A stretch of 64,000 nucleotides of DNA, taken from assembly GCF_037975245.1 (NCBI RefSeq), contig NC_092562.1, positions 14,393,521-14,457,520 of the forward strand, read 5' to 3'. Made by a program: the position numbers and the translations under genes. Of this stretch, positions 4,101 to 61,400 are shown one piece after another. The notes beneath the pieces are model-generated. The model was not told where the DNA came from. It did not search any database and saw only the letters and a list, made by a program, of their open reading frames with translations. Origin of the DNA: Apostichopus japonicus. Its lineage: Eukaryota; Echinodermata; Holothuroidea; Aspidochirotida; Stichopodidae. Position 1 is the first letter of the stretch. The number at the start of each line of letters is the position of its first letter.

Positions 4101-4539
4101 ATTGCGTAACACAACGCTAATATTTATGACATTAAAAAATCCTTGTCCAATTTTTCAAACCCTCATGCATTTAATGCCTTATGGCAAAAGTATGATTTTT
4201 ATGAAGTTTTAGTGATATTTTGCATCTGACAACAACACAATGATTTATCATTTTACTGTGACAATTTGATTTGTAAATGTTGTTATTTTTCTTGATTACA
4301 TTGTAAATTATTTCTTCATATTTCAATGATACTACTGCGACAAATGTGTTTTATTTCGATGAAATTCTGGATACTGATGATATTGGTAGCTCAGCAAAGA
4401 TTTCTAAATGTATCACATATCAAGGGATTTACCACATATCAAGTTTATTACGTAATCACATATCCAGGCTAGATCAGCAAGAAGATAATGATAGAAAAGT
4501 AAATATAATGGAAGATTAGCTACCATGCTGATGTATGTA

Positions 4540-4790
4540 TGTGTGTATGCGAGTGTGTGTATGTATCTATGTATTTTAGATCTTCCTGCAAGCAGGAACT
4601 CGCGAAGAAGCCATCATTGGCTTATCAAAGCCATAAGCTGACCAAAGTCAGTCTCTTAGATTCATATTTTAACGTCCATGATTATGAATTGTCAATTGTC
4701 AACAACTCTGTAACTGGACGACATATACATTAATCTTGGAGTGACTCGAACCGGGGACCTTATGATTGAAAGGCACCGGCGTTAACCACT
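4540..4790 (-). mobile_element. SINE family A, copy 2
   Basis: It reads in reverse from a TGTATGTAT tail to AACCACT. The last bases of the tRNA-like head are missing. The B box (GGTTCGAGTC on the minus strand) is intact. Confidence 0.85.
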
Positions 4791-4799
4791 GTCTGGTTG

Positions 4800-7591: not shown

Positions 7592-8888
7592 CAGTATACA
7601 GGAAGTTTGTTTAGGCATTTATGAATGCAAAGTAACTTATGTTATAAATCATAAGCGTATGATTGCGACGTAGGAGGGGGGGGGGGAGAGTCTGAGCGGA
7701 CCAGGAGCCTATGCCACTATCCCGAACCTCTTTTTTTAATCCTAGGAATGCAGTCCACGACGTTATTCGATCGTTCAGCTAGCGAACGGACAGCCAGACA
7801 ATCAATTCATTATTGCTTGAATCTTTTTTTTTTTTTCTTTCTTTTTTTAAGGATATTTAGTAGAAATTCCCTATAATTCGATAAAGTTTTGAAATTATAC
7901 TGGACATGAAACAGACGAACTACCAAGATATATTCCATGCCAATGAGAAAATTTGACATTATTTAAGAAACTCGTCGAACTTTGGGGATAAGAAGTCGAA
8001 ATTGCGAGGAAAAATATATAAAAAAAAATAAAACAAATTTCGTCATAGAAAAAAAAAGTCATAAATCTTGAGATAAATTACTCGTAACATTCTGATAAAT
8101 CAACATTTTTATTTTAAAAATATATATGTAAATTAAAAGAAGTAAAATCAAGGAAAAAGAGAAGATAGTACCTTGGGGGATGGGGAGGGGGGGTGAGATG
8201 TTAAGCTTAATTCCGGTGTACGAAAGTCTATGTTTTGAGAATGTCGTCGTAACATGACAGAATAAGGACAGATTTAAAGTTAACGAGACGACATAGCTGA
8301 ATACAGACACTTCCCCTTGAAGTGCTCAATGCAGTTCCAAACTTAATATCGGAAAATTGTGTTATTTTGAAATTTGAGACTATAGTATTCTCATTTTTTG
8401 AAATAAAAAAAACTTCACTAGTAAACAGATTTTAGTACCAAGATTTCCAAAAGCGTTACAAATCAGGATTTTTCAAGGATTTTCTAGTGACAAATATTTC
8501 TGAAACTTATATTGAAAAGAAAAATATTCCAAACTGCTAGTTGGAAATCGCCATCTTAATATTTTGCTCCTAACTCGATATGTGATTGATTGAATGTAAC
8601 CTATTTTGACTGGGTAAACCCTCAACTATACTGAAAGAAGTTGGATCACAGTGGGGGATATGTGATGGCATCTGGGGATATGTTCTCCCGCTAGCTTTAC
8701 TCAGGATATTATTTCCACCCACGCCTCCCTTAAAAAAAATTGATTTATAATTGTAACCTGACATATCATTAACTGGTAGGTCGCGTGGTCAAACTGATTG
8801 ATAGTACAAGTTCAGTTTGTTCATACCGTTTTAATTTTGAATAAATTTGACATCATTTGAATCTAAATATCATTTGCATATTTATAAT
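7592..8888. other. No gene seen
   Basis: AT-rich with T and A runs; a G run lies at 7675-7685. No feature is supported. Confidence 0.4.
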
Positions 8889-9162
8889 ATGTGTGTATGT
8901 ATGTATATGGGTGTGTGTGTGTATGTATGTATTTTTAGATCCTCCTGCGAGCAGAAACTCGCAAAGAAGCCATCATTTGGCTTATCATAACCGCAAGCTG
9001 ACCAATGTCAGTCTCTTAGATTCATATTAGACGTCCACGATTATGAATTGTAAATTGTCAACAACTCTGTAACTGGACGAAATATACATTAATCTTGGAG
9101 TGACTCGAACTCGGGACCTTATGATTGAAAGGCACCGGCGTTAACCACTGAGCTAACACTCC
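8889..9162 (-). mobile_element. SINE family A, copy 3
   Basis: Full-length reverse copy: TGTATGTA tail, body, then GAGCTAACACTCC as the end of the tRNA-like head. It lies downstream of the fusion enzyme gene. Confidence 0.85.
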
Positions 9163-9885
9163 TACAGTGGTGCGCGCATGGGACGTGGTGGAATGAGGGG
9201 AAATCCGACCCCCCCCCCCCCCGCATCCCGGACTGATTTAGATATAGGGGCCGAAATCATATAGAAAGACCTTGTAGAGGCGAATCAAGTATTTTATAAG
9301 TATGGGTGCTGCCCTGGAATCATTGAAGCCGTGTACCCCAGAGAGAAGTAAATAATTTATAGACGCCAAGTGATCCATACTGGTGCATAGTTAGACCACA
9401 ACTTCTGAGCTATATTAGAAGCTGGAACGCAAGGTTATGCTTATAAATACTTCATGTGAGCATCAAAGGGAGAGGCAATGTAACCTGTATATAAGTAATA
9501 GATCCTCGACTGAACCATTTTCCTCGGACTGAATCATTGCCGCACGCCCGACTGGCGAGGAGAGTTTGGGATCACCCCCCCCCCCATCCCTCTACCCTTT
9601 ATTTCATTTTAAACTTCATACAAACACTCCACTTAATAAAATTTAAAATGTATTTAAAATGTAAAAAATATATTCGATTTATATTATAACAAAATATTTA
9701 AAATGAATGCTAGTTTATGTATTTATGTACATCACCCCACCCCACATCCCCTCCCAACCCAATCATCCTTTCCATCCAAGAAAATTGCTCAAAAACTACA
9801 ACAAGCAAAAGCAACATTGCTCATACAGAACGCAATTATGTTCAACACATTGCAATATGGCTGACAAAAATTGCGAAGTACTATA

Positions 9886-11711
9886 CTACTGATTGGATAA
9901 GCAAGTGTCGTGAAGAAACTTGTTTAATAGTGACATTATTTGCGCTCTTGTTATGGACATGACTTGAGTTTGATTGAGTCCTAAGGGCAAAGATGTTAAT
10001 ACTCCTGCTTTCAATATGACAGAGATACTGCGATGGGAGTAATGTACAGCTATGGGCAACTGTGAGGGATCTGGCCGTCTCATCTGGAATTCTTTGGATG
10101 TACTATTGCAACTGAATGGCACCTGAAATACGGTTTCGACTTGCTCTACTAAACTAAAAATGTCTACTAATCCATCTGACAAAAACTGAGCAAAACATAA
10201 CATATCTGACACGTGAGGTTTACCTACAGCTATAAAAGTTGGATTGGACTGCCACTCGACTTCACCCATCAATCTCGCCACACGAGTATAATCGTTGCTG
10301 GTGCCATATACTAACGCTGGAACAATGCCTTCATAGATGGTAAATGAATCCTTGAAAGGTGGCGAGCAAGCTGGAAACTGAAATGGTAGCACGTCAAAGT
10401 CGGACATCCAACCCCCGCCCACAGTAGCCATGGCGACGTATCTCAAAAAGCAAGACATTTCGTATTCTTTTCTATTTATTGTTGGTAACTGTTCAAATTT
10501 CGCTCGAAGACTCAGGTAATCTGGGTGTGTCTTCGCGTCCTCTTCGCTAAGTATACGAGGATTCCAACCGGCCAATGTCCACGATTCTGTCCATATTTGT
10601 AAGATTGCCGCCTGTATAATGCGCTCTTCTTCAGCGATCGCATTAATCTTTTGGAAGTAAGTATAAATGACACAATTCGTATTATTAGAGGAGGTAATAT
10701 CGTCGCTGTGGTAGCCTTTGCGGTCTGCGCGCATCTTGTGTGTAATATCGTCCCTTTGGCGTCTTGTAGTACATTCTTGATAGCGCGATGCGAGCGTATC
10801 CGGCGTTAAGTCTAACTCTGGGTTTTGCAGCTCCGAACTATCGTGAAGATTCATCGAGTAACCTAAAACACAAAAATCGATCGCGTAAAGATTGGTCAAC
10901 TTTGCCCAACTAGCTGGGTTGTAGTGTTTAGAACAATCGAGCTGAATCATTTCAGATTGCAAAGAAGATGTGTCCATATTTATTCTGCTGCCGAGGTCAA
11001 GGATACTCTGGTTCCAACTTTCAAAGACTAAGAGTTGATCCATATCAAATTTTCCCGAGGAACGGAAAAGCATACCGACTTGTGTTTGAAGATGTTCGTT
11101 ACTTTCAATGTGAACATCTCCGCCGGGAAAAAGAGATCTTTCCATGAAAGCTTCAAATGACGACGAGGTGACGTCATCAAAGAAAAAGCCCGCCAAATTA
11201 TTATCAGTTTTATGGTCAATCCACTCTTGAGATAAAACTTTCCAAACGGAGTGCAGTCGTGAACACGGATGACGGACTACGGCGAATTTGTAAAAATCTT
11301 GAAAGGCAATCGCGTCAAATTCGTCGATTTTATGGTATCCTCCTAAGGGATGTCCCCCCGTCACTCGTCTTTGATCGTCAAAAAGATATGACGTTTCGAT
11401 GACGTCGCCACCGGCGAGAGGGATATGAATAAACAACAGTTGGTGCTCTTCTGAGATTTGACTATATTTGGGTGCAATGGGGTATTGGAGGATAGATTTC
11501 GATGATCCTTTCTTGCAATATGGATGACCGGCTAGTTTATCAAATCCTGGACCGCAAACCCACGCGTTAGAATTGTCATTACGACATACTTGAGAGGGTG
11601 GATTATCTGCGTCACCTTTTTTAATGACCTCTAACGACCAGCCGTTTGGACAGTTTGCCATTAGCAAACCACCGGTACTCGTGGTTTCCACTTGATGATC
11701 GGCAACAGTAT
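9886..11711 (-). CDS. Terminal exon of a sulfotransferase-like / DXD glycosyltransferase-like fusion protein
   Basis: This exon has 608 uninterrupted codons after a split first codon. The acceptor is TTGCACAG just above 11711. No ATG lies near the 5' end (the codon at 11691 is GTG), so it needs an upstream exon. With the anchor exon at 16653-16878 the protein would be 683 residues. In that numbering a four-Cys segment spans 96-141. A Sulfotransfer_2-like domain follows: loop IHIPLAGGD at about 170-178 and 3'-phosphate motif VVRHPCSRLHS at about 220-230. After a linker, a second domain begins near 420 and has RYVAMATVGGGWMSDFDV, a DXD motif (D513, D515) as in GT32-like glycosyltransferases. 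The usual loop is PKTGG; here Lys is Leu, so sulfate transfer is doubtful. A minus-strand AATAAA lies at 9598-9603, about 280 bases after the stop. The expected location is the Golgi lumen. Confidence 0.8.
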
Positions 11712-11893
11712 CTGTGCAATAAAAAACAAATCATAACATCAACCTCAAATTAATATGATAAATATTAGTTAAAAATAATAGTCACTGGTGTTTTTAAAAA
11801 ATTTCAGAAAATAAGAGAGAAATCATTGTATATATATTTGCCTGCACGATCACAGAATATCATTGGAGGAATCGGAACAACTAGCGGTACAAT

Positions 11894-12490
11894 GTACCGT
11901 AAAAAGGGGTAACTTTGGCTGGTTTTAGGCTTATTTGTCGAATAAATAAAGAGTATAATAATAAAAAAAAACACGTTTCTTATGTTAAAAATGAACATTG
12001 GCATTCTTAGATATTTATATAGATCAAATTTGATGTAAATATGTGGTGTTCTTAAAACTTATGTGATAAGTAAACCCCAAAAAATGATTTTTACATTTGG
12101 GGCAACTTTGGCAGGTATATACAGTACTAAATCAATAGTATAAAAAAAATAAAAAAATATTCAATCAATTTTTTGGACATTGAGGGGGCTGGGATTCGAA
12201 GAAAAACTCTCAAAACCAAAAATAATACTTAGAGCGGCAATGGGAGCTTGCACAATATTTATGCAAATTAGCACATTATTTCCTAATTTCAATTGTTTAC
12301 AAATTATTTCAAATAGTATCTATCATAATAATCATGTTGGCAAAATGTTCTACCCTTTATACCCCCAAACATCACACGAAATCACAATATTGAAACACTG
12401 TCGAAAATAGAGGGCAGTCGGTCAATTTAATAAAACCCCTTAACTGCCAATATTACCCCGGGTGCCAACGTTACCCCGTTTTACGGTAAC
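11894..12490. mobile_element. MITE of about 597 bp with inverted ends, in the fusion enzyme intron
   Basis: The left end GTACCGTAAAAAGGGGTAAC and the reverse of the right end GTTACCGTAAAACGGGGTAA agree for about 26 bases. Further GGGGCAACTTTGGC and CCAATATTACCCC motifs repeat inside. I cannot place its superfamily. Confidence 0.65.
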
Positions 12491-12699
12491 ACGCCGGATT
12501 ATCTTGTAATATTAATATGGGGGTTGGGCGGGCGGATGGAGGAGGGGATCGGAATCTGAAGGCAAGTACTTTTGTGAACACTGTTTTTTTTTTTTTTTTT
12601 TTTTTTTGTAACCCGCTAAAAATTGGTTGATATTCATCACATCGCGTAAACGTAAACTAACTTATGTAATTACATTTACTATAAAATTGTATTTTATCT

Positions 12700-12770
12700 G
12701 GGAGGCATTTTCGGCCAAACTTTTCTTTTACGCTTCGCGCCAACACATAGTGGCGATACGCTTAGACAGT
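12700..12770. mobile_element. Core fragment of the hAT-type MITE family
   Basis: TTTTACGCTTCGCGCCAAC and TAGTGGCGATACGCTTAGA match the core seen at 1-90, 5820 and 21097. Confidence 0.45.
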
Positions 12771-12874
12771 TTGCCGACAGGCTTCGCTCTCCCCTTGGCA
12801 ATTTCCTCGCTATACGCGCCTACTAAGCGTATATGGACATGACGGTGTTACGATACGTGAGTATATATCACGGG

Positions 12875-13293
12875 TATAGCAAGCCATGTGGGACAAACAC
12901 CGCATAATATATCAGCGTATTAATTGGAATTTATACGCGTATATTATTAGCCAATCATATGGCTTAAATATATCCGCATATTAATTCGAATATATACACG
13001 TATTAATTCGAATATAGACACGTATTAATTCGAATATATACACGTATTAAATAGAATACATATGGGGATTAAATCCAATTTATGCACGGATTAATTCGAA
13101 TGTACACGAAAACACACTTCCGCTCTTGCTGTGTAAATATATCAACGATAAATATTTTGGCGGGCTTGCGAGATCGCTTCAAAAAGCGAAACTATACGCA
13201 TGTACAACACATGTATATTCAATTAATACGCGTATATATTCGAATTAATACGCGGATATATTATGCGGTGTTTGTCCCACATGGCTTGCCATA
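12875..13293. mobile_element. Palindromic element of 419 bp with 22 bp units
   Basis: Ends TATAGCAAGCCATGTGGGAC and its complement continue for about 38 bases. CACGGG flanks both sides (12869-12874 and 13294-13299), a 6 bp target duplication. Inside are about six 22 bp units around ATTAATTCGAATATATACAC and a CCAATCA motif near 12951. Confidence 0.75.
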
Positions 13294-13931
13294 CACGGGC
13301 CTCTTGGAAGTGTATCTCTACTACACAAGATCAGGGCTTGGGATGTTAAGTATACAATACCGATTACGACGTACATTGTGTTTCTGCCATTATTTGGCAT
13401 CTATAAACCTCTTTCAACAATCGTAATGTAGCGGTTGATTGATCAGGGATTCTGTTATGTAATTTGAGAGAAACGGTTATTCTAAAAGCGAATTCCATCC
13501 GCCGTCGGACTGTCTTTACTATATAGAACAGCATGATTGGTATTCTGGCGAAGAGATGCCTGATAGATAAACAAGTTGGATTATCAACCTGTTTTTCTTT
13601 TCCAAAGAGGAAATCTGCTAAAGTGCAAGCCAGGATAAAGTGCGTAGGTTTATTCATCTCAAAATTCCTATCGTTAAAGAACCTTCATTTCTAATTTTGG
13701 GCTCCCACAGTCTGTGTACTAGCTATACCCCCTCGCCTTCTACAATTTATTCGTCTACTTTGGGTGATAATTTAGGCACCCGGCATCCACCCCCCCCCCC
13801 CTACTTCTTCTACGTCTCTCTTCCTCTCTCTCTCGCTTGCTACACGGCCGAATGTCCCCATATACATAACGTCTTTTTAATGTGGGTCTTACCTAACCAG
13901 TAAGTTCACTATCACCTTATAACACCTATAG

Positions 13932-13965
13932 GAGAGTTAGCTCAGTGGTTTCCGCCGGTGCCTTT
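13932..13965 (+). mobile_element. SINE family A head fragment
   Basis: Only GGAGAGTTAGCTCAGTGG to GGTGCC is kept, then a poly-T run. Confidence 0.6.
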
Positions 13966-14178
13966 TTTTTTTCATACCTTTATTTGCAAACCTTAAAAGA
14001 GCTACATTAGAACATATAACGAATTATGGTTGTCTTTATAAGTAAAGCATTACTGTCTTGGTTGTTGAGACTAAAGAAGTGTTTCGCGCAAAAATCTGTA
14101 TGACTACGATCATCAAGGAAGATGCATTTGTTAAATCAGCAACCGCTAGTCGATCATTAATATCTTTAAAAACTTTTA

Positions 14179-14409
14179 GGAGTGTTAGCTCAGTGGTTAC
14201 CGCCGGTGCCTTTCACTCATACGGTCCCCGGTTCGAGTCACTCCAAGATTAATGTATGTCATCCAGTTACAGAGTTGTTGACAATTGACAATTCATAATC
14301 ATGGACGTTAAATATGAATGTAAGAGACTGACTTCGGTCAGATTGCGACTTTGATAAGCCAATGAGGCTTCTTCGCGAGTTCCTGATTGCAAGAGGATCT
14401 AAAATACAT
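14179..14409 (+). mobile_element. SINE family A, copy 4
   Basis: Complete copy with GGAGTGTTAGCTCAGTGG head and canonical B box GGTTCGAGTC. It lies in the intron between exons 16653-16878 and 9886-11711, antisense to the gene. Confidence 0.85.
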
Positions 14410-15326
14410 GCCATTAAGTTTTTAAAGACCATGGCGACTTTGGAGGAACAAGATCGCATCAAATACCTTTATCAATTTGTTTATCTCAATTGCTTGACAG
14501 TATTATGACGAAAATGTGTTCAACACCTCACATTATTTGGAAAATGTTATAAGTCGTACGTATCTTCCAAAAGACCAGCTGCTGTAGAATTTAATATTCC
14601 GTATATTATCCGAGGATTTTGTTCTTATAAGCCATTGAAAAGCAATTAATTCTCGTTAAGCCACTGGTCAAGATGGATTCAGTGCCTTTGTTCTCAAATA
14701 CTCTGTCGAATAGATCGTTGGTAGCTTGACTCATATAATTCTAAACAACACCTATTAGATGTCATGTATATTCCCTACGAAATGGGGAAAAAAAGCGAAA
14801 GTTAGGTCAATCTTCAAAAATAATTCCAAGCTTAACATCTCAAACTATAGACCCATATCCATTCTATACCGGTATTACCAGATTATCAGACTTGAGAAAA
14901 TACAACTTTCACAAAGTACCTTGAAAACTTACTACGAATTGCCCAGTCTGGTTTTAGAGAGAATCATTCATGCGAAACTACCCTCATTAAGATTATTGAT
15001 AAATGGATGGAAACTAACGACAATGGATACAGTATAGAGCCGTCTTTGTTCAACTTCGAAAAGTCTTTGATCTTGCTATAGGCCTAATCACAAATATCTT
15101 GTAACAAATGTGACATATGTATGGCTTTTCCGCGATAACACACTCAAATGGTTCGGAACATACCTTATACAGAAAGGGTGCAAAGTATACGTACATAGAC
15201 AAAGTTTCTTCTTTTTACCGAATATTCATAGTTTAATTCACCGTTTGAACTGGGATTATAGGACTTCGCATACAAAAGTTACGGTGCCAAATAGCCCCCA
15301 CAGTGCGGAAAAACTAGGGTTTCCAA

Positions 15327-15718
15327 CAGTGGCGGAGCTAGGGATATTGGTCAGGAGGGGCGAGAATGGTCTGTATAGGGCAATTTCGACATTATCTAAG
15401 CGGAGCGCCACCGCCGGTTGGCGCGTAGCGTATACAGAATTTTTCTGAGTAAAGATACTCCCTAGATCGCCAGAAATGACCCTTTCCGGCCTTGCTAATT
15501 TGCAGATAAACGAAGAATAAATAGGTGTCATCGCGAAATTACACCAACAAAATGTGACAAATGTCAATATAGGTAGATGAGAGCGCAATAAAAAAGTCAA
15601 TAATCGCGAATGAGTAAAAAGTGGTAAAGAGCTGAAAAGGGCGCCAGCAGTCCATTTGAGTCCGTCAGGGGGCATCGCCCCCCCCCCCCCCCCCGACTGT
15701 ATGGACGCTCCGCCACTG
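15327..15718 (+). mobile_element. hAT-type MITE, 392 bp, with 8 bp target duplication
   Basis: The ends are inverted repeats CAGTGGCGGAGC and GCTCCGCCACTG. The flanks 15319-15326 and 15719-15726 are both GTTTCCAA, a perfect 8 bp duplication, as made by hAT transposases. A run of C lies near the right end. It sits within a decayed LINE, so it is younger than that LINE. There is no coding capacity. Confidence 0.9.
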
Positions 15719-16035
15719 GTTTCCAAGTGTACTCTCATTGAAAATGTCCTAAAAAAAAAAATTTCATTTAAAATTGGCGTAAGGTTACCGAAATATATGG
15801 ATTAAGGCATACACCACCTGAAAGCTAACCGTTTAAGCTTTCAAAATATGGATGGTCCAATATGATTGACTAAATACACATGAGAAGATACAGGTCAAAA
15901 CACACACAAAATGGCTCTTGCGCTACACAGTTAAAGACCCTCACGGAGTGCCATGAGCGCTATGTTCCGTTATGCAATGGAAGTGGCCTCTGCAGGGTGC
16001 CACAACAGGGTTCAATTCTTGGGCCATTACTATTT

Positions 16036-16231
16036 CGCATCTTTCTTAGTTTAGTTTAGTTTAAAAATGTAAAAAAAAAGGATCAGGAGGGACACTTAAG
16101 TCCCCATCAAGGACTCTATAGAGAGAGAGAAAAAACTGAAGACACAAACACTCAGACCCGATTAGAATGCTTAACCTTGTCCAAAGCATTCTTAAACCCA
16201 TTGACACCTCTTGCAAGTACAACTTTCTCTT
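16036..16231 (-). mobile_element. CR1-like LINE 3' end inserted in the other LINE
   Basis: GGATCAGGAGGGACACTTAA and CACTCAGACCCGATTA match the 3' end of the copy at 49519, between the QGSILGPLLF and YADD pieces of the older LINE. Confidence 0.75.
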
Positions 16232-16652
16232 AATGACACAGTGGCCCTAAGCCTACACCACTGTCTTGTATAGGCATGTACGCGGATGACACAACATTAT
16301 ATTTATTCGATACTAATATTCAGGAACTAAACATGAAGATACGGAGGAAGATGTTTCTAACATAAAAAGAGTGGTGTATAAACAAAACCAATGGTAATGA
16401 ATTCAGTAATGAATGTTAACGAAACGATGTTAATATCTTCAAAGCTCAAATTTTCATAAAGCCCACAGTCGCATCATTTTTTTTCTACTTCGTTTTCCTT
16501 CATCTTTATATTCTGTTGCTTTTTCTTTCTTGCTTTAGTTTTTGGCTATTTGTTTACCTTAGTTTTACTTTTATGGGCATCGGGGGGAGATTAGCATTCT
16601 AGCTAACCGAGTTTTACCCTTCTGTCAAAAGTTAAATAAATATATAAATTAC

Positions 16653-16878
16653 CTGCAACGACTGTTAGTTCACTGGCACTTATCATTCTTGTTATGCTAT
16701 TCAGTTTAGCGTGTTTTTCTTGGCGATTAATTTTCCCTCCATGCAAGAAGGAACCTTCGTGGTTAAGAGGCAATAATGTTGGTCGTTCCAAGATTGTTAG
16801 GTAGAGAACACCGCAGAGGAACAACAAACACAAAAACAAATCCTTGAGATCAATACTATGGTGATATAGTCTTGCCAT
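16653..16878 (-). CDS. Membrane-anchor first exon (1a) of the sulfotransferase/glycosyltransferase-like gene
   Basis: From the ATG at 16878 the exon gives 75 codons plus one base. Residues about 12-30 form a hydrophobic span with the core FLCGVLYLTIL. A polar stem rich in Lys, Asn and Ser follows. The donor is GTTGCAG|GTAATT, phase 1. This matches the acceptor at 11711, where the split codon becomes GAT (Asp). The layout is that of a type II Golgi enzyme: short cytosolic tail, one span, lumenal stem. An in-frame ATG at 16962 would lengthen the tail. The intron to the next exon is about 4.9 kb and holds a 600 bp MITE, a 419 bp palindromic element, SINE sequence and a decayed LINE. No transcript is available to confirm the join. 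Confidence 0.6.
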
Positions 16879-16962
16879 CTCGGAATGTTCTAGTATGTAA
16901 TTAACTTTTAACACGAAGTATAGGTCAGTTTGACTTCTGAACGTTTTGGAAAGGCAGTCCAA

Positions 16963-19900
16963 CGAGGAGTTGTGAATCGTAACTAATTCTCAACGAATTC
17001 TCCAGTCCAGCGTGTGTTAGTCCCCTCTACATAAGGATTCCTTTCGGCATTATACTGGTCTGGTCTGCATCTGAAGTTTATGCACAGCAAACCACCTGTA
17101 TACGCGCAATTTAACGACGCACCCCTTTGTTGACACGAAACACTCATTTATCCGTATTAAATGATGCATGGAAGTATCTTATCACAGTACTTGTATCGGC
17201 ACATTCAAAAGAGCTATCTGTTTTGAGTAGGAGTTTTGCGATGGGACTTTTTGTAGATTAAGTCTCCATACGACCATACACAAAGAAAGCAAATCCGACC
17301 CTCTTCAAGGATTTATAGCGGTATACGTGTAGCCCACTGTACTACGATTATTGAATAAAACATTAGAAGGGTTAATCTGGGTTTTTTTCTTATTATTATT
17401 CCTTTTGCAATGGTTTATCATCATTTTATTTTAATGCTTCGACGTCGAAGAAGATCAAATATACGTTTACTGTTGGTGTAAACTAGTAAGGGGGATTGCA
17501 AGTGGTTTGAAAACATCTGTTTATTCCCTAGCAACCTTGGCATGTGACGAAGTGAGTATGTACTAAGTCGATGGAAATATCGCCTATAAATAATAATGGT
17601 CTCATGCATGCGTGGTAACAACATTCGATAAAACAGAGCCTTTTTCAGTGTATGTGTCAATACTGGAAACAGTGTGAATTCATGTTTACCAAAAATGAAT
17701 CATCTAACGATGCTTGGTTGTCAAAACATTATATCAATATAAAATTGTAGATATTTTCTGGGGGCGGGAGTGGGGGGTTGGAGGTAGTCTAGAAGAATCT
17801 CGCGATCCACTTATGGTGCTGATCATTATAATCAAACACTTTAACTGGGACATTCTCAGTCCCCCCCCCATCCCACCCCAGTCCCCTTACATCGTGGATG
17901 GTGATACCTGGCAAGTGACACAAGGTAAGAAAAACTTAAGAAATGTACCACATTCAAAAACACTTATAGGAAACGCCTATATAGGTTAAACTTATGGATG
18001 GTAGATTCTGAATTCGGAGGATTGAGTGACGGAGTGGAGTCTCTGTGTGTCGGTTATAGGTAGATGAGGAAAGTGCAGAAGTAGACTAGAGACAGGTAAG
18101 TATCGTCGATTTCAAGGATAGATCAAATATTTGTATAATATATAGGAAAGAAGAGCTGCCACGATGATACCATAGACCCATTCTACTATATGAATTACAT
18201 GAATAAGTGGCAGAATTAAGCCAATCGAAATATAGGTAACCGCCAGATTGAGATGGTACTTCCAACTAACAGAGTAGAATATGTTGATGTATGTTATGAT
18301 TATGATTATGTTTATGTTATGATGTATGTTATGATAGAGTAGAATATTTCTGTGCTTAAATAACAGAAGTGGTGACAGGGACGTAGCTAAGGCATGATGA
18401 TTGGATGGGGAGGTGGGGGGGGGGTAGTGGCTGAAAATCCAACTAGATGGGTTTTGAAGCCAGAAAATTCCGACTGCTGTCTTGTACCCCTCCCCCCCCC
18501 ACCCTCGCGATACTCATCAACGATACGGTCAGTGTCAGTCGGACACCCAATCTTTCGCGACTGCACTTTTGTTCTGAACTATTTTCGATATATTTGTATA
18601 CCCACTGGCACTCATTTCACAAACTTATTAGCCCCCTCCCCCTCCCCCACACCACCCCAGCCAAATATTTTTGTGAAAATTCGTTCAATATGCTGATAAC
18701 TTTTCGGGCACCTACTGAAAGAAAGATAATATGCAATGTGTTTTTCAGTGGTTAAACTTATATTAGTATTACTTTTAATATTGTAACGACTTCCCCAATA
18801 ATTATAACCAATATGGAAGGGTAATAAGACGGAAAATGATTGTATGTTATTGGCATGCGATGTAAAAACCGATGCATGCCTATATGATATGCACATTATC
18901 ATGTGGAACGCTCGAAAAATTTTGGTTATATTTTTCGGGCAAGTCGTTACAGCACCCCCCCCCCCCCCCCACCCATTCAAATTGGGCTCCTACGCATATA
19001 TGACGGTAGTTCTATTAGGCATTCTTTTTTTGGAGTATTCAAAATCATACGAAGTTTTGTACGGTGAAGTATAAGAATCGCGAGATATATTGGCAAGGAA
19101 AACGTGGTAAATATCACTGATTAAAGGTCAATTTTGACTGAAATATTTCAACTTTTAGGTCATGCACAATCACAGGAATAAATGAATAGGCCTAGATAAA
19201 CTAAAGTGCGACAGTTGGATATTCCAAATATCGTCCATGAGGCAATGCCTGTATACGAAATATCCTAAATCAGTGACGTAGGCAGTTTTTAAAATATGTT
19301 AGGGGGGCGGAAAACCGGTGGAGTTTGAGCTGTTGAGTCACCACAAGTAACTTAGTTTTGTAGATGTATGCTACGGTGGCCGAGGTGGTACCTTGAAAGT
19401 ATCAACTATTTGATATCAAAATTTCGCCTTTTTTCTAAACTGTACGAATGTCAGTTTTTCATCGAAAATTTCCCCTTTCGTGTCAAAAGTTTAGAGAAAA
19501 ACAGCTAAAAAGTAGAGTCATGAGTTACATGAGTTTATCAGTTGCCTGATTGCCTGGTTCCGCGGTTGCTCACTCCTTACCAATTATCCAACTCATGGGC
19601 GCAGATCAGTCTTGGATAATGGTGGGGGACGCGTGTCTGTTCTCTGATACTATAAGCGGTGCGCGACCATAATATGTTGGCGCGTTGCGTACAATACATT
19701 TTTGGCAAATATACCTCACACATGGGCGGCGATCCTGGGGGGGATGGGGGGATATATCCCCCCATGAAAATGGGTGGAGGGGATGTAATACACCATATCC
19801 CCCCACCAAATGCCAGGGATAAGAATATTTTCATGCCTACATTTATGCATCATCGTGAATGTACGGCTCTTTTTTATCTTCATTTCTCGCCTACCATAAA

Positions 19901-22857: not shown

Positions 22858-23060
22858 GTATTGGATGTATTTTAGATCCTCCTGCAAGCAGGTACTCGCG
22901 AAGAAGCCTCATTGGCTATATCAAAGCCGCAAGCTGACCGAAGCCAGTCTCTTACATTCATATTTAACGTCCATGATTATGAATTGTCAATTATCAACAA
23001 CTCTGTAACTGGACGACAATCTTGGAGTGACTCGAACTGGGGACCTTATGATTGGAAGGC
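22858..23060 (-). mobile_element. SINE family A, copy 5, head-truncated
   Basis: Reverse copy from the ATGTATT tail to the anticodon-arm region (GGACCTTATGATT), followed by a short ACATGCATACT repeat. Confidence 0.8.
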
Positions 23061-23462
23061 ACATGCATACTTTGGAAGGCACATGCATACTATGACACAT
23101 GCATACTGTGGTAATAACGTCCCCTTTCCTAAGGCCCTCTATACGCCGCTAGATTATTAACAAGCGAATTATGGTCACACCTCCAAATCTTTGAGGCCCC
23201 TGAACTTCCCTGAAGTATGCCCAGGCTAACCATTTCCCCTCTAACCCTACCCTCCTTCCTCCAATTGTATATATGTCTTCATCACACACACCATTCAAAT
23301 GTGTTGGCAGGCTAACACGGTATTTGGACTGTTAAATCAATTGCATGGTCATATGCCATGGAAGATACCACGCCTTGTACACATCTGAGAATGCAAGTAA
23401 GGGTTTATGATATTCTTCTCCCTCTGAGAGGTAAAATACTGACCCCCGGGAGGCGTCTGTTT

Positions 23463-31055: not shown

Positions 31056-31777
31056 TATAATTGATGAAACTGAGACACCATTTTCCTACAAATTCTGGGT
31101 TGAAATGAGTGAGTCAGTAATGAATTTGATTCAGTTGTCAAATGTTTTGTTGCCAAGACACCAAGTATGTTCATATTAATATTAATGCTACAAGCAAACA
31201 TTTGGAAAACATCTTCTCTTTCCTTTTTTCTTTCACTTCTGTGTCATTAGTTGAAATTAAACTTGACTGAAATCAAGGTTAACTAATGAAAAAGATTAAT
31301 GTAGTCTTGTATCACTGTCACATAATCTCACAATATTGATCCGAATCAACTCAAAATTCTGCTTTCTGTATTAAGAGCAAAGAGACCACAAAACACTGTA
31401 GTGCACACAATGTGATCACTTTGGCTTAATTATGTCTGCTCACACATCTATGGCTTTAAATTTGATATTCACGTTCGATCCTATATGTACACATTTACAG
31501 TATGCATGTTACATCACAATTGACATACACATACACATACATTGACAACAGTGTTCAGCTTAAAAGTGAATGTCACACAGCATTTATCTGAACGTGCATT
31601 TGGCACTACGTTAACTTGTTTCCTTGCAGAAACGTTATTTAAGGCACATCCAGGAAGTTTGTGATAACAGTATCACAGAGCAGTGCAGAGCATTAATGTT
31701 TTCAATAATAGTTATTTGCAGCTTTACAGTACTTTCCATGTATTAATTTATTAGGAGTGTTATTAGGAGTGTAATTA

Positions 31778-32015
31778 GGAGTGTTAGCTCAAGTGGTTAA
31801 AGCCGGTGCCTCTCAATCATAAGGTCCAGAGTCACTCCTAGATTAATGTATGTCGTCCAGTTACAGAGTTGTTGACAATTCATAATCATGGACGTTAAAT
31901 ATGAGTCTAAGAGACTGACTTTGGTCAGCTTGCGGCTTTGATAAGCCAATGAGGCTTCTTCGCGAGTTCCTGCTTGCAGGAGGATCTAAATTACATACAA
32001 ATACATACATACATA
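31778..32015 (+). mobile_element. SINE family A, copy 6
   Basis: The head is preceded by three repeats of ATTAGGAGTGT (31752-31783). The B box is damaged by a deletion (GGTCCAGAGTCACTCC), so Pol III activity is unlikely. Confidence 0.85.
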
Positions 32016-52400: not shown

Positions 52401-55400
52401 ACACAACATGCAGATGTAAGCATTGAAAACCGATGGATATGTACAGTAGTTATGGCAACATTTTGTCTCCTATAGCTGCCCAAAATCACAGTATGCATAT
52501 ATGTATGAACACAATTGCAAGATAAAATATTGGTACTCAGTTGCATATAATAGTGTCATATGCAATGTACATGAACTTGAATGCTTATTATGCTGGAATT
52601 GTATTCAGAAGCTCTCAGAATGACGGATTTGGAAGTGAGGGGAAGTGATTGTGATGGGTTACAGTAGGTGGGGAGGTGAGCTAACATGGAACCAAGTTTG
52701 GTGGGTACTCAGATTGTTGTGTATGGTTTGAAATGGAGACAGTCAAGAATATATACTGTTTGTTCTGGTTCTGCCAGATTCAACTATTTTCTCTGGTTCA
52801 CAGAATGTTATATACATAAAGAGCTCGGAGCATGTTTCTACACTATAATCCAGTACTTCAAATTGCATTTATCTAATTCTATTCCCCCTGATTAGTTTTA
52901 GTAACAGACAAGTTTACATCATGCATGCATTGATCCTGTTGTAATGTCCAAGGTATATGCAGTCGCTGTATGCTCTCAATATCCATACATACTGTACATG
53001 ATCCTTGGAACTGTAACAGCCATGCAAGCAGGAAGAATTTCTCAGAGAAGATTTCAATAGTACTGTATTAAAATTCTACTTTTTTTCTTGACTTTCACCA
53101 ATCATTTTATCTGTAGCTGGAACACTCAGCCTCTGGGATTTTACTGTTTAATTGATACTAAAGTTTAGTTAAAGATAATAGTGTCGATAATCACAGTGAC
53201 CTTAAATATCAATTTTCTGCTTCAACCATATTCTGACATTACCATTTTAAGAATCGAGTTGACACAATTGTCGATATGCTTCTTTATTGTTGTCGATTAG
53301 AAATCTTTAATTTCTCTGAAAGATGCTTCGTACTTGTCCATCCTCTTTCTTAATTGATTTGTTCTCTTTAACTCTGCAGAACGTTTTTGCTAGAGCCGTT
53401 TGCGGCAACTCAAGATTTTGTTCATCGAATCCAGTTGATTGTGATCCTCAGCAGCTGGGTGATTGCAATGCCTTTGCATCTTGGAAGCTTTCAAGTGATG
53501 GTACAAAGTTAGAGATGGGTCTGTATGCCCAGACTAGCAGTTATGTTGCTTTTGGTTTCTCTCGATCTCCCAGTATGGTTAGTTCATCAAAGTTTCTCAC
53601 AGTTTTCTTCATTCTGTGATTCATGTAAAATTGTAACTAAAGGTAACCAAGCTTGCTCAAGTTTTCTCTGTTATATCAATGTTTTCTTCTGCTCTTGTTT
53701 AATAAATTGTTCTCTAGCTGTGGTAAATCTGGCAGCTGATACACATAGGTACTATACACATGTTACATTTCTTCTTATTTGTCTAATTTTTTGTTTTATT
53801 TATCTTTTATTTTTATGAGTACCTTGTACATTTGCATATCAATAGGATCTAAGGGTCTATACTGTAGGCACATTTAAGACATTTCAGTATCTATACATAT
53901 TTCGATATGCTTCAGTAGGATATTGATGGGAAGGATTATAACTAAATTAATTATATATCTGGAATCTATAAGACTCAAAGTGGATGAGAGATCAAATGTG
54001 TTTGATGTATAGTACTGATGATGCATCAAAGGTGTATATGAGGTGCACAACATCAAGGTCAACCCTGACTATATAAGTGACTCTATAACTTGATGGAATG
54101 TTTTTGCCTTTCAATTAATGCATATAGCTCGATACCGATGTTTATGCTTGCACAGCTAACAGTGAAGTCATACGATCACGAAACAATGGTGGTTATGGAA
54201 ATGAACCTCAAACCCTGGTAAGACACTTCTAAGGTGAATGAATGTTGTAAAAGACGGGATGGTAAGGGGTCAAAGTGGAACATGTTGTCCGGTTGGGTGT
54301 GCCATGAATGATAAGGGGAGAAATTGCTTTGAAAATATCATTAAGTACCTCGCAGAGGAAACCTTTCATGAGAAGTTATGTATTACTTTAGTCTTACTTT
54401 AATAATTATAACTAATTCAATGTCAGTTTACATATATATTTGATTTAAAGTGAAAAAACGATGAGCCTGCAGATAAAGCAGCATTAGGCTGTGATAATAA
54501 AGTTTGAGGAAAAGAAAATGGGTGCTGCAGTGTGATGCTCAAACATCATAACAATGCAGGCCATTGGCTTGACTTAAAGTTTTAATCCAAATTATAGTGT
54601 TAGTTTGAGCTTGCTAGCTTTTATTCTGTGAATGATAGCATACTATCAAAATAATAAAATTGATGAAATAACTGTGTATTAACCTTCCTTTTGTGAGAAA
54701 GTCTATTTTCAATTATACTTTATACGGAATTTAATTAAGTTATTGACAAACTTGAAAGCAGTGTTTTAGAAAATAAACACATCGATAAAATATGTGGTGA
54801 CAGTTTAGTCTCAATCTATTTTCTTGGGTGAAAATAATTAATCTTCACTTAAATAAATAATTACACTTTAATAAATAATTAATCCTCACTTAACCAACAC
54901 CGGTGCCTTTCAATCATAAGGTCCCTGGTTCGAGAATTGATTGACTCCTAGATTAATGTATGTCGTCCAGTTACAAAGTTGTTGATAAATAACAATTCAT
55001 AATCATGGACGTTAAATATGAATGTAAGAGACTGGCTTTGGTCAGCTTGCGACTTTGATAAAGCCAATGAGGCTTCTTCCCGAGTTCCTGCTTGCAGGAG
55101 GATGTAAAATACATATACATACATACTTTTTCATATTTTCTTGTCTTCATTTTGTCTTCAGATGGGTGTTAGTGATGAAACTGTCGTGCAAGAGAATGGA
55201 GTGATTCATTGCCAGTTTTCCAGAGCTGTTTCTGTTGCTGGTGACGTGAACTTTTTTGATCTTTCTGATAGCAATGGCTATTATGTCATTATGGCATGGG
55301 ATGGTGGATTAACCCAAACTAGTGAGTATTACCAGTAGCATTGGAAGGGACTAGATAATGCAGGGCAAAATGGTCAGGATTTTGTATCTGGTTGTCCTTT

Positions 55401-58400: not shown

Positions 58401-61400
58401 TGTACGAAAGCTTTAAGAATCAAGCCGTAGGGGATCTTTCATGAGAATCTGATCCACAACCCATAAGACCCCCCACCCCCCCCACCCATTAGCATTGATG
58501 CTCAGAACGTTTGAAGGATAGCTTTTACTGTGGACTTGAGGTTACTTCATCTTCTTGTGTGGCCAAGCTTTGCAAAACTGCAGATCATTGTTTTCTCTTA
58601 GAAATTGAAAGCAAGCTAGCAGCCTAGTTCACACTTTTCAAAGAACCCAAAATGATGAACTGTAAGCTAACATCAACACTCATACCCACGTTGGCACAAT
58701 CGTATAGGAGAAGGCCCTTGATGTACAAGATGAATTGTTAAATTTTGCTTCAATTGTGATTTAATTTCTCAGCCAACATCAGTAGAAATGGAGGAGCCAT
58801 CTCCAACAGGAAGCACCCCATTGCATCAGGATGAGGTAAATCAGCTTTGGTGAAATGTTTTTCTAATTATGTTGAAAAACAAATCAAGTTAAATGATGAA
58901 GAAATTTAAAGTTAATTTGATTCAGTCTGCACATGTATGCTGAAAGTATTAAGAATTATGAAATGGTGTTTGTTGTTTTGTAAGTAATGTTTTTTTTCTG
59001 AGATGTCTATATCTTAGGTGAAGCTATGGTAAGAGTGGTAAGAACTTCTGTGATGTGGCCTTAAGGGTCCTGTTTTCTAAACCCCACCAAGAATAAAGAT
59101 TCTCTTGGCCTATTCAAAGTTGCTGATTTGCATTGTTGTTGAGCATGCAGAAAGAATCTTCTATGTTTTATTCCTGGTTTATGCATTGGGGGTTTGGTTC
59201 TTTTTACTGAATGGTTTTGAAAGAACTTTGTTCACCCATGATAGCAGCTGATTTGTGAGATGGTGAGTGAGAAGTGGTGTCTGCAATTCCCTCAGTATTT
59301 GAGAGTTGCCCTTGTTATATTTGAGAAATGAGTGAGATGCTGGGGTACATTTTCATCTGTCGGATAGGGACATCAAGTGACATTCCTTGGAGATGGAACG
59401 AGTGTGTCATAATACCCCCCACCTACCTGCTTCATAAATTTCTCAGGTGTGAATTGATGAGCTGAATGATATATCAAACAGGCAGGTTTTCTAAATGTCA
59501 CAGAATCTAGTCTACCAAACAGATCAAAATAATAACTGATATATGATTCTATGTTAAAGACGGGTGGATTAGTTTGGGGTGGAGAGGGGGGGGGTTGTTG
59601 CTTAGGGGTTGTTGTGATGGGCCACTGGAGGCAGCTGGAGGGTAGACTGTGGTCCTTATGTATCGAGGTCATAGTGAATACAACAGTATCACAGTCAAGT
59701 CTATATCTACTTATATTAGCTGTGTGTATTGAAGAGCGGTGGATTTTTGTGAAATGTTACTAACACCTAGAGGACTTTGCTTCCCTCAGAACCACTGACA
59801 TCATATAAGGCAATGGGAGAATATATTTTTTGCCTTTTTTCAGAGCCTCTTCTCTCAGTCAGTGTGTGATCAGAGCAGATTCTGCACATCTCGTCCAGCT
59901 GGTTGTGACCCCCAAGCAGATAATTGTCAAGCCTTCGCTTCCTGGGTACTGTCTGCCGATGACACACGGGTAGAATTTGCACTGTATGCGAAGAGCTCAT
60001 CTTACGTTGCTATCGGTTTCTCACCGACACCCAGTATGGTAAGTTGATCCCATATGTTGCTTTAATAGAACGTTTTAGTGGCCGACCAGAATGTGGAGGT
60101 ATTGATCGAGCTAGAGACACAAGTCTTTATTAGTCACAAGTCTTTATTAGATGAGGGAGATATTCTGAGATAAAAAATCTCGGCACACTCTTCTTCAAAA
60201 TCATGTTTACGTTTGACTAAAACTTATGTTGACCAGCTCTTCTGGAATCCAGTAGATTTTGTATGTTTGCATAGCTGTAAATGGCATGATGCGAAAAAAA
60301 GGAATTGCAAATTGTCATTCCTTTTTACCTTCTGTGGATAAATTATTTAAAATTATAAAAGGAAAATCAAGATTTTCTCAGCTTAAATGGTACATGGATT
60401 ATAAGTTACTTAAACTTCTACAATTGCCAGATTCTCTGAAGAAAATAGCTGTGATAGACATTCTCTGAACCCATTGGATGTAAAACCTGTACAGATTTAG
60501 ATATAAGCAACAACACTAGAAGATGTGAGAAAAGAACAACATAAAGTCTATTTTCTAATCATATTTCTGCTGTTGATGCTTTGCCTGGGGGGGGGGAAGA
60601 AGGAATCTATGCGATGGTGATGGGGTGTGTGTGTGTGTGCATGTATGTGACACTTCTTGTAAACACCGTAACTCAAATAGTTCATGGTGGATTAACTTCA
60701 TACTTGGTATCTGGATCCGTCTAGTTGGGTACAAGAAGCCTACTGTTTTCTGTGAAGTTCAATGATCATTTGTGGTAACCACAATATTTAACTCAAAAAG
60801 TAACTCTTTGTTGAACTTTATACATGGAATGCAGATCCAGCTTGGTGGGTACAAGGTGGGTACAAATTGGTGGAGGTCAAAGTTCATTTGCAGTCAACAT
60901 TTGAGTCAAAGTCTGAAAATCTTGTAAACATGATAACTCCAGAATTACATCTTTCTTGAATTTCATACATAGTATGTAGATCCAGCTTGGTGAATGCAAC
61001 AACCCTATTAAAATTGGTAGAGGTCAACAGGTGTCAAAGTCTGAAATCTTTTTAAACATAAATAACTCTAAAATTAAAGCTGCAATTAATATGTGAATTC
61101 TACAATGCTATGATTTTCTTTTAGTAAACATATTTTGGTCAAATTCAGTGCAGTTTAGTTTTGTGAAGGGGCTCCATAGGTCTTCAACATGACATTCAGT
61201 CATCCAGGATATGAAACCTGCTTCAAAGAGTTGATATTGATGGTCTTTGCTTTTAAACACACACAAGCAGACCCTTACCAGCTTTCATCCTCTTCGAGGG
61301 GTCAACACTTTGTATGTATGTTAGATCCTCCTACCAGCAGGAGCTCGCGAAGAAGCCTCATTGGCTTATCAAAGCCGCAAGCTGACAGAAGTCAGTCTCT

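Follow-up and report, generated by a model that had tools for sequence, protein, structure and literature searches.

Can a single gene of a sea cucumber carry a sulfotransferase and a glycosyltransferase in one chain, and which of the two halves would then do the work? The question is raised by a stretch of 64,000 nucleotides from Apostichopus japonicus (assembly GCF_037975245.1, contig NC_092562.1, positions 14,393,521 to 14,457,520 of the forward strand; hereafter the window), in which the original prediction had one exon coding for two halves, a sulfotransferase (ST) and a glycosyltransferase (GT). This was borne out: on the minus strand the open frame 11730–9889 runs through 614 codons without a stop and encodes a Cys-rich module together with both halves. 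The ST half has lost the lysine of its cofactor loop and the GT half has kept its DXD motif. On balance we lean slightly towards a Golgi GT-A glycosyltransferase as the working enzyme, with the fused ST being a pseudo-sulfotransferase that would serve as an acceptor-binding module. The broken loop, the multi-copy nature of the family and its viral relatives go beyond what had been noted before.

A family of fusion genes in the genome

We searched the genome of the species (671,581,487 bases in 35 contigs) with the exon protein and obtained 23 matches. Counting from matches and frames, 12 genes on C2, C16, C18 and C19 carry both halves in an unbroken frame; the ST-GT fusion is thereby confirmed as genuine and not a product of chance. 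The 12 fusions are the window gene (L001) and L002, a tandem group on C2 (L004–L008), three genes on C18 (L003, L009 and L010), L011 on C19 and L013 on C16, whose GT half is row L017. One more C18 copy, represented by rows L012 and L023, is broken, and for L016 on C19 the part read covers the GT half and the last portion of an ST half. Six relatives have an ST without a nearby GT match (L014, L015 and L018–L021). L022, an open frame of 390 codons, has the Cys-rich module and the GT half but lacks the ST half.

In a tree of the GT halves, for which 18 of the bacterial and viral rows retrieved served as the root, all 15 rows from the sea cucumber fall into a single clade (support 100/100). L022 lies inside the C18 fusion group (99/97), so that loss of the ST half is its simplest explanation. 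The window gene and L002 stand apart from the other copies, a placement that is not firm (89/82).

Two of the C18 fusions (L009:1069-3126 and L010:1138-3138) contain a variable NPHS/SNPH repeat between the Cys-rich module and the ST half. Immediately downstream of one of them, a reverse-transcriptase-like open frame was noticed by eye (L010:3188-4516).

Gene model and domain layout

The features of the window gene are as follows.

16653..16878, minus strand: exon 1, 226 nt, with the ATG at 16878 and an in-phase GT splice donor at 16652
Within exon 1, minus strand: putative signal anchor, DLFLCLLFLCGVLYLTILE, about 19 residues long, after a short tail and before the stem (from hydropathy)
9886..11711, minus strand: exon 2 including the stop codon, residues 76-683, three putatively luminal modules in one open frame
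11515..11652, minus strand: Cys-rich module, residues 96-141, CP.GW.LEV...QVCR...W.C..G..KL...P.C (from alignment)
10855..11439, minus strand: ST half, residues 167-361, phrog_3347 match, 47% identical to the half of L003
11404..11439, minus strand: altered 5'-phosphosulfate loop for 3'-phosphoadenosine 5'-phosphosulfate (PAPS), LLFIHIPLAGGD, which reads FIHIPKTGGT in ST-only relatives
11335..11337, minus strand: Tyr201, His in 10 of 11 rows of alignment A8, position of a candidate catalytic base
11248..11280, minus strand: 3'-phosphate motif VVRHPCSRLHS, residues 220-230, PXXRXXS kept
10033..10674, minus strand: predicted GT-A half, residues 422-635 (from structure model and fold matches)
10393..10401, minus strand: DXD motif, Asp513-Phe-Asp515, within GGGWMSDFDV, residues 507-516
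10201..10218, minus strand: PHVSDM of the GT half, H.SDM being for the most part conserved among relatives from bacteria and viruses
7608..17576, no strand assigned: duplicated stretch, aligned with C2:13578001-13588000 over 10,019 columns at 98.98% identity

The first base of exon 2 (11711) is preceded by a T-rich stretch and an AG acceptor, and its phase matches that of exon 1. Splicing across the intron suggested by these signals would give a protein of 683 amino acids, the length originally proposed; the two motifs named at the time, VVRHPCSRLHS and GGGWMSDFDV, are both present. Residues 13-31 form the most hydrophobic 19-residue segment of the whole protein (hydropathy 2.12), and four N-glycosylation sequons are found. 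The product is most likely a type II membrane protein, presumably of the Golgi. Alignment shows the Cys-rich module to be common to the fusions, the ST-only relatives L014 and L015 and the ST-less L022; it is absent from L018 and L020.

The sulfotransferase half

The N-terminal half had been described as Sulfotransfer_2-type. The Pfam model PF03567 (Sulfotransfer_2) gives only 17.5 bits over 26 residues on the window protein, below the curated cut-off of 22 bits, so that membership does not follow from this protein by itself. The homology is nevertheless secured: phrog_3347 ('Galactose-3-O-sulfotransferase') matches residues 93-294 of the exon protein with an E-value of 4e-6, covering profile positions 6-218 of 219, and three paralogues exceed the PF03567 cut-off (L003 with 41.3, L011 with 38.2 and L013 with 32.5 bits). 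At E ≤1 PF03567 is matched by 12 of the 13 members of alignment A1, that is, by all but L022, in which the ST half is missing. L004 on C2 gave no phrog match at E 0.1.

The PAPS loop differs between copies. The six ST-only relatives have PKTGGT. Among the fusions, the three on C18 read PKAGGT, the five in tandem on C2 read SKSGGE, L013 reads PQTGGL and L011 reads PHTGSH. In the window gene and L002 it reads PLAGGD, i.e. the lysine is replaced by leucine and the threonine by aspartate. Across the fusions the loop lysine is kept in 8 of 12 and the full PKxGGT loop in 3 of 12. A passage in PMC11625862 gives the phosphosulfate-binding (PSB) lysine together with PXXRXXS as the signature of PF03567, and part of PMC3733922 describes a docking model in which Lys614 of NDST1 contacts PAPS. 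The 3'-phosphate-binding motif PXXRXXS is retained in the window gene as PCSRLHS. As a control, the loop was judged by eye in 36 other PF03567 matches, chosen from the 76 of the genome; the lysine is present in 33 of the 35 that are readable (20/20 and 13/15), one match (L209) stopping short of the loop.

A second position is also altered. The histidine shared by 10 of the 11 A8 rows, a candidate for the catalytic base of the sulfotransferase, is replaced by tyrosine in the window gene and L002 and by glutamine in L011. It aligns with the HGH of HS2ST in a sub-threshold match only (E 0.035, with unrelated chains at similar E). Because the loop lysine is lost and the mostly conserved histidine is tyrosine, the ST half of the window gene is predicted from its residues to be dead, i.e. 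unable to transfer sulfate. All ST residues tested are present in the three C18 fusions, which could be bifunctional.

Repeated independent loss of the PAPS loop was considered as well and not upheld: the ST tree, with long branches for L011 and L013, requires two changes and only 4 of its 14 branches are firm.

The glycosyltransferase half

Profile searches gave nothing firm for the C-terminal half. Matches of this half and of its bacterial and viral relatives in Pfam, PHROGs and NCBIfam are all at chance level (E 0.016 or worse), and no Pfam GT family is matched by the window protein at E 10 or by the 13 members of A1 at E 1. A structure model (m00e200c9d647) was built together with 31 bacterial and viral relatives (alignment A6, 32 rows) and reached a pLDDT of 91.3 and a pTM of 0.89. 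The best PDB matches by Foldseek are LtpM, LARGE1, Och1 and GT6 enzymes, with E-values from 1.3e-4 to about 2e-3 and query TM-scores (TMq) of about 0.3–0.4. A second fold comparison returned UGGT (7zle, Z 10.9, root-mean-square deviation (rmsd) 3.5, 190 aligned residues), LARGE1 (7zvj, Z 10.7, rmsd 4.3, 190 aligned), mimivirus R699 (9dyt, Z 10.7, rmsd 3.7, 173 aligned), glycogenin (1zcy, Z 10.5, rmsd 4.3, 193 aligned) and LgtC (1g9r, Z 10.1, rmsd 4.1, 187 aligned), five matches that form one tied group. Going by their titles, most of the PDB fold matches listed are glycosyltransferases. The C-terminal half is, as judged from the model, a GT-A fold.

The earlier designation as GT32-like holds in part. 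The GT-A fold stands; the assignment to that family is not supported, as no Pfam GT family is matched and the similar folds include UGGT, LARGE1, glycogenin, GT6 enzymes and Och1. Och1, of GT32, ranks fourth by Foldseek (9n3s, E 8.6e-4, TMq 0.34) amid several GT families that score alike. Both aspartates of the DXD motif are present in every one of the 32 A6 rows and in all nine GT halves from the sea cucumber in alignment A2. Viral relatives vary at this motif, with DSD or DAD in some and DYG in L080. This GT-A family is recognised by none of the three profile libraries.

Duplication of the locus and constraint on the two halves

The second copy, L002 (G000:C2:13580285-13582126, also L108), is found on the chromosome of the window gene at a distance of about 823 kb. 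The near-identity takes in at least 10 kb of surrounding DNA, and exon 1 is included in it. Given 98.98% identity over this length, the second copy is either recent (a segmental duplication) or an assembly duplicate. Between the window gene and L002 we counted two nonsynonymous and no synonymous changes in the ST half, and no nonsynonymous and two synonymous changes in the GT half. Among tandem copies the nonsynonymous/synonymous counts are 7/3 (ST) versus 11/14 (GT) on C2 and 21/20 (ST) versus 56/29 (GT) on C18. Neither contrast shows a significant difference in constraint between the two halves.

L003 and L010 diverge as a mosaic, with synonymous divergence (dS) of 0.219 in the Cys-rich module, 0.096 in the ST half and 0.007 in the GT half, a pattern expected of gene conversion. 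A dispersed repeat of about 200–260 bp, 85–93% identical to stretches of L108, occurs in the window at 718-966, 4531-4791, 22859-23062, 31775-32013, 54900-55114 and 61311-61546.

Relatives in bacteria and viruses

Outside relatives were searched for in prokaryotic, phage, plasmid and viral collections. In prokaryotic genome contigs the GT profile found two loci, on a contig of a Planctomycetes metagenome-assembled genome (MAG; L024) and in a Verrucomicrobiaceae MAG (L025). Uncultivated viral contigs were scanned twice (L026-L105 and L109-L173), with 122 and 140 encoding stretches, of which 80 and 80 were kept; the two sets overlap, so the 147 GT loci represent fewer distinct contigs. Among the matches listed, L109–L112 are closest (40–44% identity over about 150 residues, 35–38% over aligned rows), and the open frames listed measure 186–322 codons. 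Annotated phage records yielded no GT relative with the queries P0002, P0004 or a protein of L071, and among 387 genomes of the phylum of G001 the GT was found in G001 alone. The contig of L024, filed as Planctomycetes bacterium TMED75, looks phage-like by eye (L024:1-6138, a portal-like open reading frame (ORF) of 717 amino acids and later ORFs), and since it resembles phage DNA its GT may be a phage gene.

For the ST, no relative was found in viral contigs with profile A4 or the L107 ST, and the ST of L112 used alone found only its own contig. A broader profile (A7) gave at least 325 encoding stretches, of which 80 were kept. ST and GT share an ORF at none of the 227 loci from bacteria and viruses (147 GT and 80 ST). 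At 6 of 147 GT loci the GT gene has an ST-like neighbour no more than about 6 kb away; these loci are on five contigs, L026 and L113 being the same contig; the same neighbourhood is seen in 2 of 80 ST loci (L226 and L227, which are alike). Four of the six neighbourhood loci (L025, L111, L112 and L131) had themselves been used as seed sequences for the ST profile, so they were bound to match it. The neighbouring ST is confirmed by Pfam on L111, L112 and L131, whereas L025 gives nothing. On L111 and L112 the ST gene follows the GT gene at a distance of about 0.7 and 1.4 kb and scores 42.2 and 47.9 bits with PF03567. The neighbourhood is uncommon, and enrichment of ST genes beside GT genes, judged without control loci, is weak.

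We compared ST halves with viral STs and with the 36 other PF03567 matches of the genome. For L003, L004, L013, L014 and L018 the best viral ST scores 33.1–69.7 bits and the best other own-genome match 26.9–38.1 bits, below the viral one each time; for the window ST half both are 29.6 bits. Viral STs reach up to 42.0 bits against the other own-genome STs. In a tree of 36 rows, from which six near-copies of the fusion family and 16 own-genome PF03567 matches were left out, the fusion family and four viral STs are separated from 20 other own STs by a branch with 95/100 support, at which long branches meet. These scores and this tree make capture of a viral or bacterial pair possible. An echinoderm ancestor may have captured an adjacent phage or bacterial ST-GT pair, which was fused behind a Golgi anchor and multiplied; the ST would then have decayed in most copies into a pseudoenzyme through which an otherwise undescribed GT-A family recognises sulfated acceptors. 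We regard this scenario as speculative and rather doubtful.

A 484 kb uncultured phage (LR756508.1, L107:832-2698) carries three consecutive ORFs that appear sulfotransferase-like by eye. Their loops read IPVATNG, IPKNAGT and VPHAAGT, with the lysine in the middle ORF only, which parallels the lysine loss in the sea cucumber.

Proposed function of the fusion protein

How could a protein of this layout work? The N-terminal signal anchor would hold it in the Golgi, where the GT-A half would transfer a sugar from a nucleotide sugar with the metal held by the DXD motif. The ST half, without sulfating, may bind the acceptor or present it to the adjoining GT; the acceptor is perhaps a sulfated glycan. 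Of the 12 fusions, only the C18 copies retain every ST residue tested; these might transfer sulfate as well as sugar. It had been suggested that one half only binds a substrate or, alternatively, that the chain couples sugar addition with sulfation. The former fits the window gene, with leucine for the loop lysine, tyrosine for the histidine and the DXD kept. The latter does not hold for the window copy, which lost the residues, and is still possible for the three C18 paralogues.

Several observations weigh against a dead ST half that assists an active GT. The viral L131, the eleventh row of A8, combines an intact loop with tyrosine at the histidine position, so this exchange is weaker evidence than the loss of the lysine. 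Two own-genome PF03567 matches outside the fusion family (L199 and L200) lack the loop lysine as judged by eye, and a passage in PMC11625862 notes that Stf0 has an arginine in place of the PSB lysine; lysine loss is therefore no strict proof of inactivity. We are also less sure that the five SKSGGE copies are dead, the lysine being retained in an altered loop. Full-length structure prediction without alignment reached a pLDDT of only 35 and was not used, which leaves the ST half without a model, and for the GT half the TM-scores to the best PDB matches are low (TMq 0.34–0.42 for four matches at E up to 1e-3), so that its model supports the fold class only. The loop loss in the window gene and L002 may be young, since the few changes between them are all nonsynonymous in the ST half and all synonymous in the GT half, and in the tandem copies the difference in constraint between ST and GT is not significant (Fisher p 0.26 for C2 and 0.12 for C18).

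L199 and L200 are located at G000:C19:23098700-23099800 and C19:30908100-30909300.

Drift of both halves of the window copy towards a pseudogene, with the family functioning through other copies, is unlikely. The window gene is one of two near-identical copies, the C18 copy L012/L023 is already broken, and the GT tree sets the window pair apart, if not firmly; but 614 codons are open, both copies are intact, and the DXD and other GT-invariant residues are kept. We likewise give little credence to the ST half as a structural or dimerisation domain needed for folding of the GT rather than a binding module. The overall ST homology does persist despite the lost loop lysine, yet the 390-codon frame of L022 and the absence of a shared ORF at all 227 outside loci indicate that members of this GT family can occur without an ST, which argues against an essential structural role. 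A true bifunctional enzyme, whose GT half adds a sugar that its ST half then sulfates, seems improbable even though the three C18 fusions retain PKAGGT, the histidine and RHPCSRL and although the ST-like genes within about 6 kb of a GT on five bacterial or viral contigs hint that both activities serve one pathway: the window gene has exchanged the loop lysine for leucine, the loop threonine for aspartate and the histidine for tyrosine, and just 3 of 12 unbroken fusions have the full PKxGGT loop. Finally, an artefact of two adjacent genes merely sharing a frame, or of assembly error, is hardly credible, since the 12 unbroken genes on four chromosomes have an identical order, which refutes a chance shared frame, and the ten besides the window gene and L002 are 36–45% identical to the window protein over the matched parts.

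We thus retain, with some preference, a working GT-A glycosyltransferase assisted by a pseudo-sulfotransferase. To our knowledge, most genes for the unusual sulfated fucans and the fucosylated chondroitin of sea cucumbers are unassigned. An ST-GT fusion family with ST sites complete in some members and broken in others provides candidates for such sulfated-glycan genes, and makes it testable whether a dead ST half directs a GT towards acceptors that carry sulfate. In addition, it brings to light a GT-A family that is missed by three profile libraries and recurs in uncultivated viral contigs.

Comparison with known systems

An expansion of sulfotransferases in a holothurian has been described for Stichopus monotuberculatus, where CHST11, CHST13 and CHST15 are expanded and linked to fucosylated chondroitin sulfate (portions of PMC10213396; also mentioned in a passage of PMC13228809 that describes no ST-GT fusion). 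The present family resembles it as a sulfotransferase expansion and differs in kind: those genes are CHSTs, and the words 'fused', 'bifunctional' and 'glycosyltransferase' are absent from the main text of PMC10213396. In the portions at hand, PMC11468063 treats brown algae and describes no ST-GT fusion, and PMC13390465 and PMC4483657 concern separate bacterial genes rather than a fusion. Searches of the open PMC literature listed no paper whose title and abstract describe a sulfotransferase-glycosyltransferase fusion from sea cucumbers or other organisms, which does not prove its absence in print.

The ST half resembles Sulfotransfer_2/phrog_3347 in the homology across its length and in the PXXRXXS motif, and differs in the missing loop lysine of the window copy, the tyrosine for histidine and the fused GT. 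The GT half shares its predicted fold and the DXD motif with GT-A enzymes such as UGGT, LARGE1, glycogenin, LgtC, GT6 enzymes and Och1, but is only 5–14% identical to them in the fold alignments listed and has no profile match beyond chance. Unnamed viral GT-like proteins, of which L109–L112 are the closest listed, share GGGWMSD.DV with it; they are about 200 amino acids long, with neither an ST nor a Cys-rich module in frame. NDST consists of a deacetylase and a sulfotransferase, and LARGE1 of two glycosyltransferase domains. Like these, the window protein presumably combines two domains that modify carbohydrates behind a single type II anchor; unlike them, it joins a sulfotransferase to a glycosyltransferase, and one of the two domains is apparently dead.

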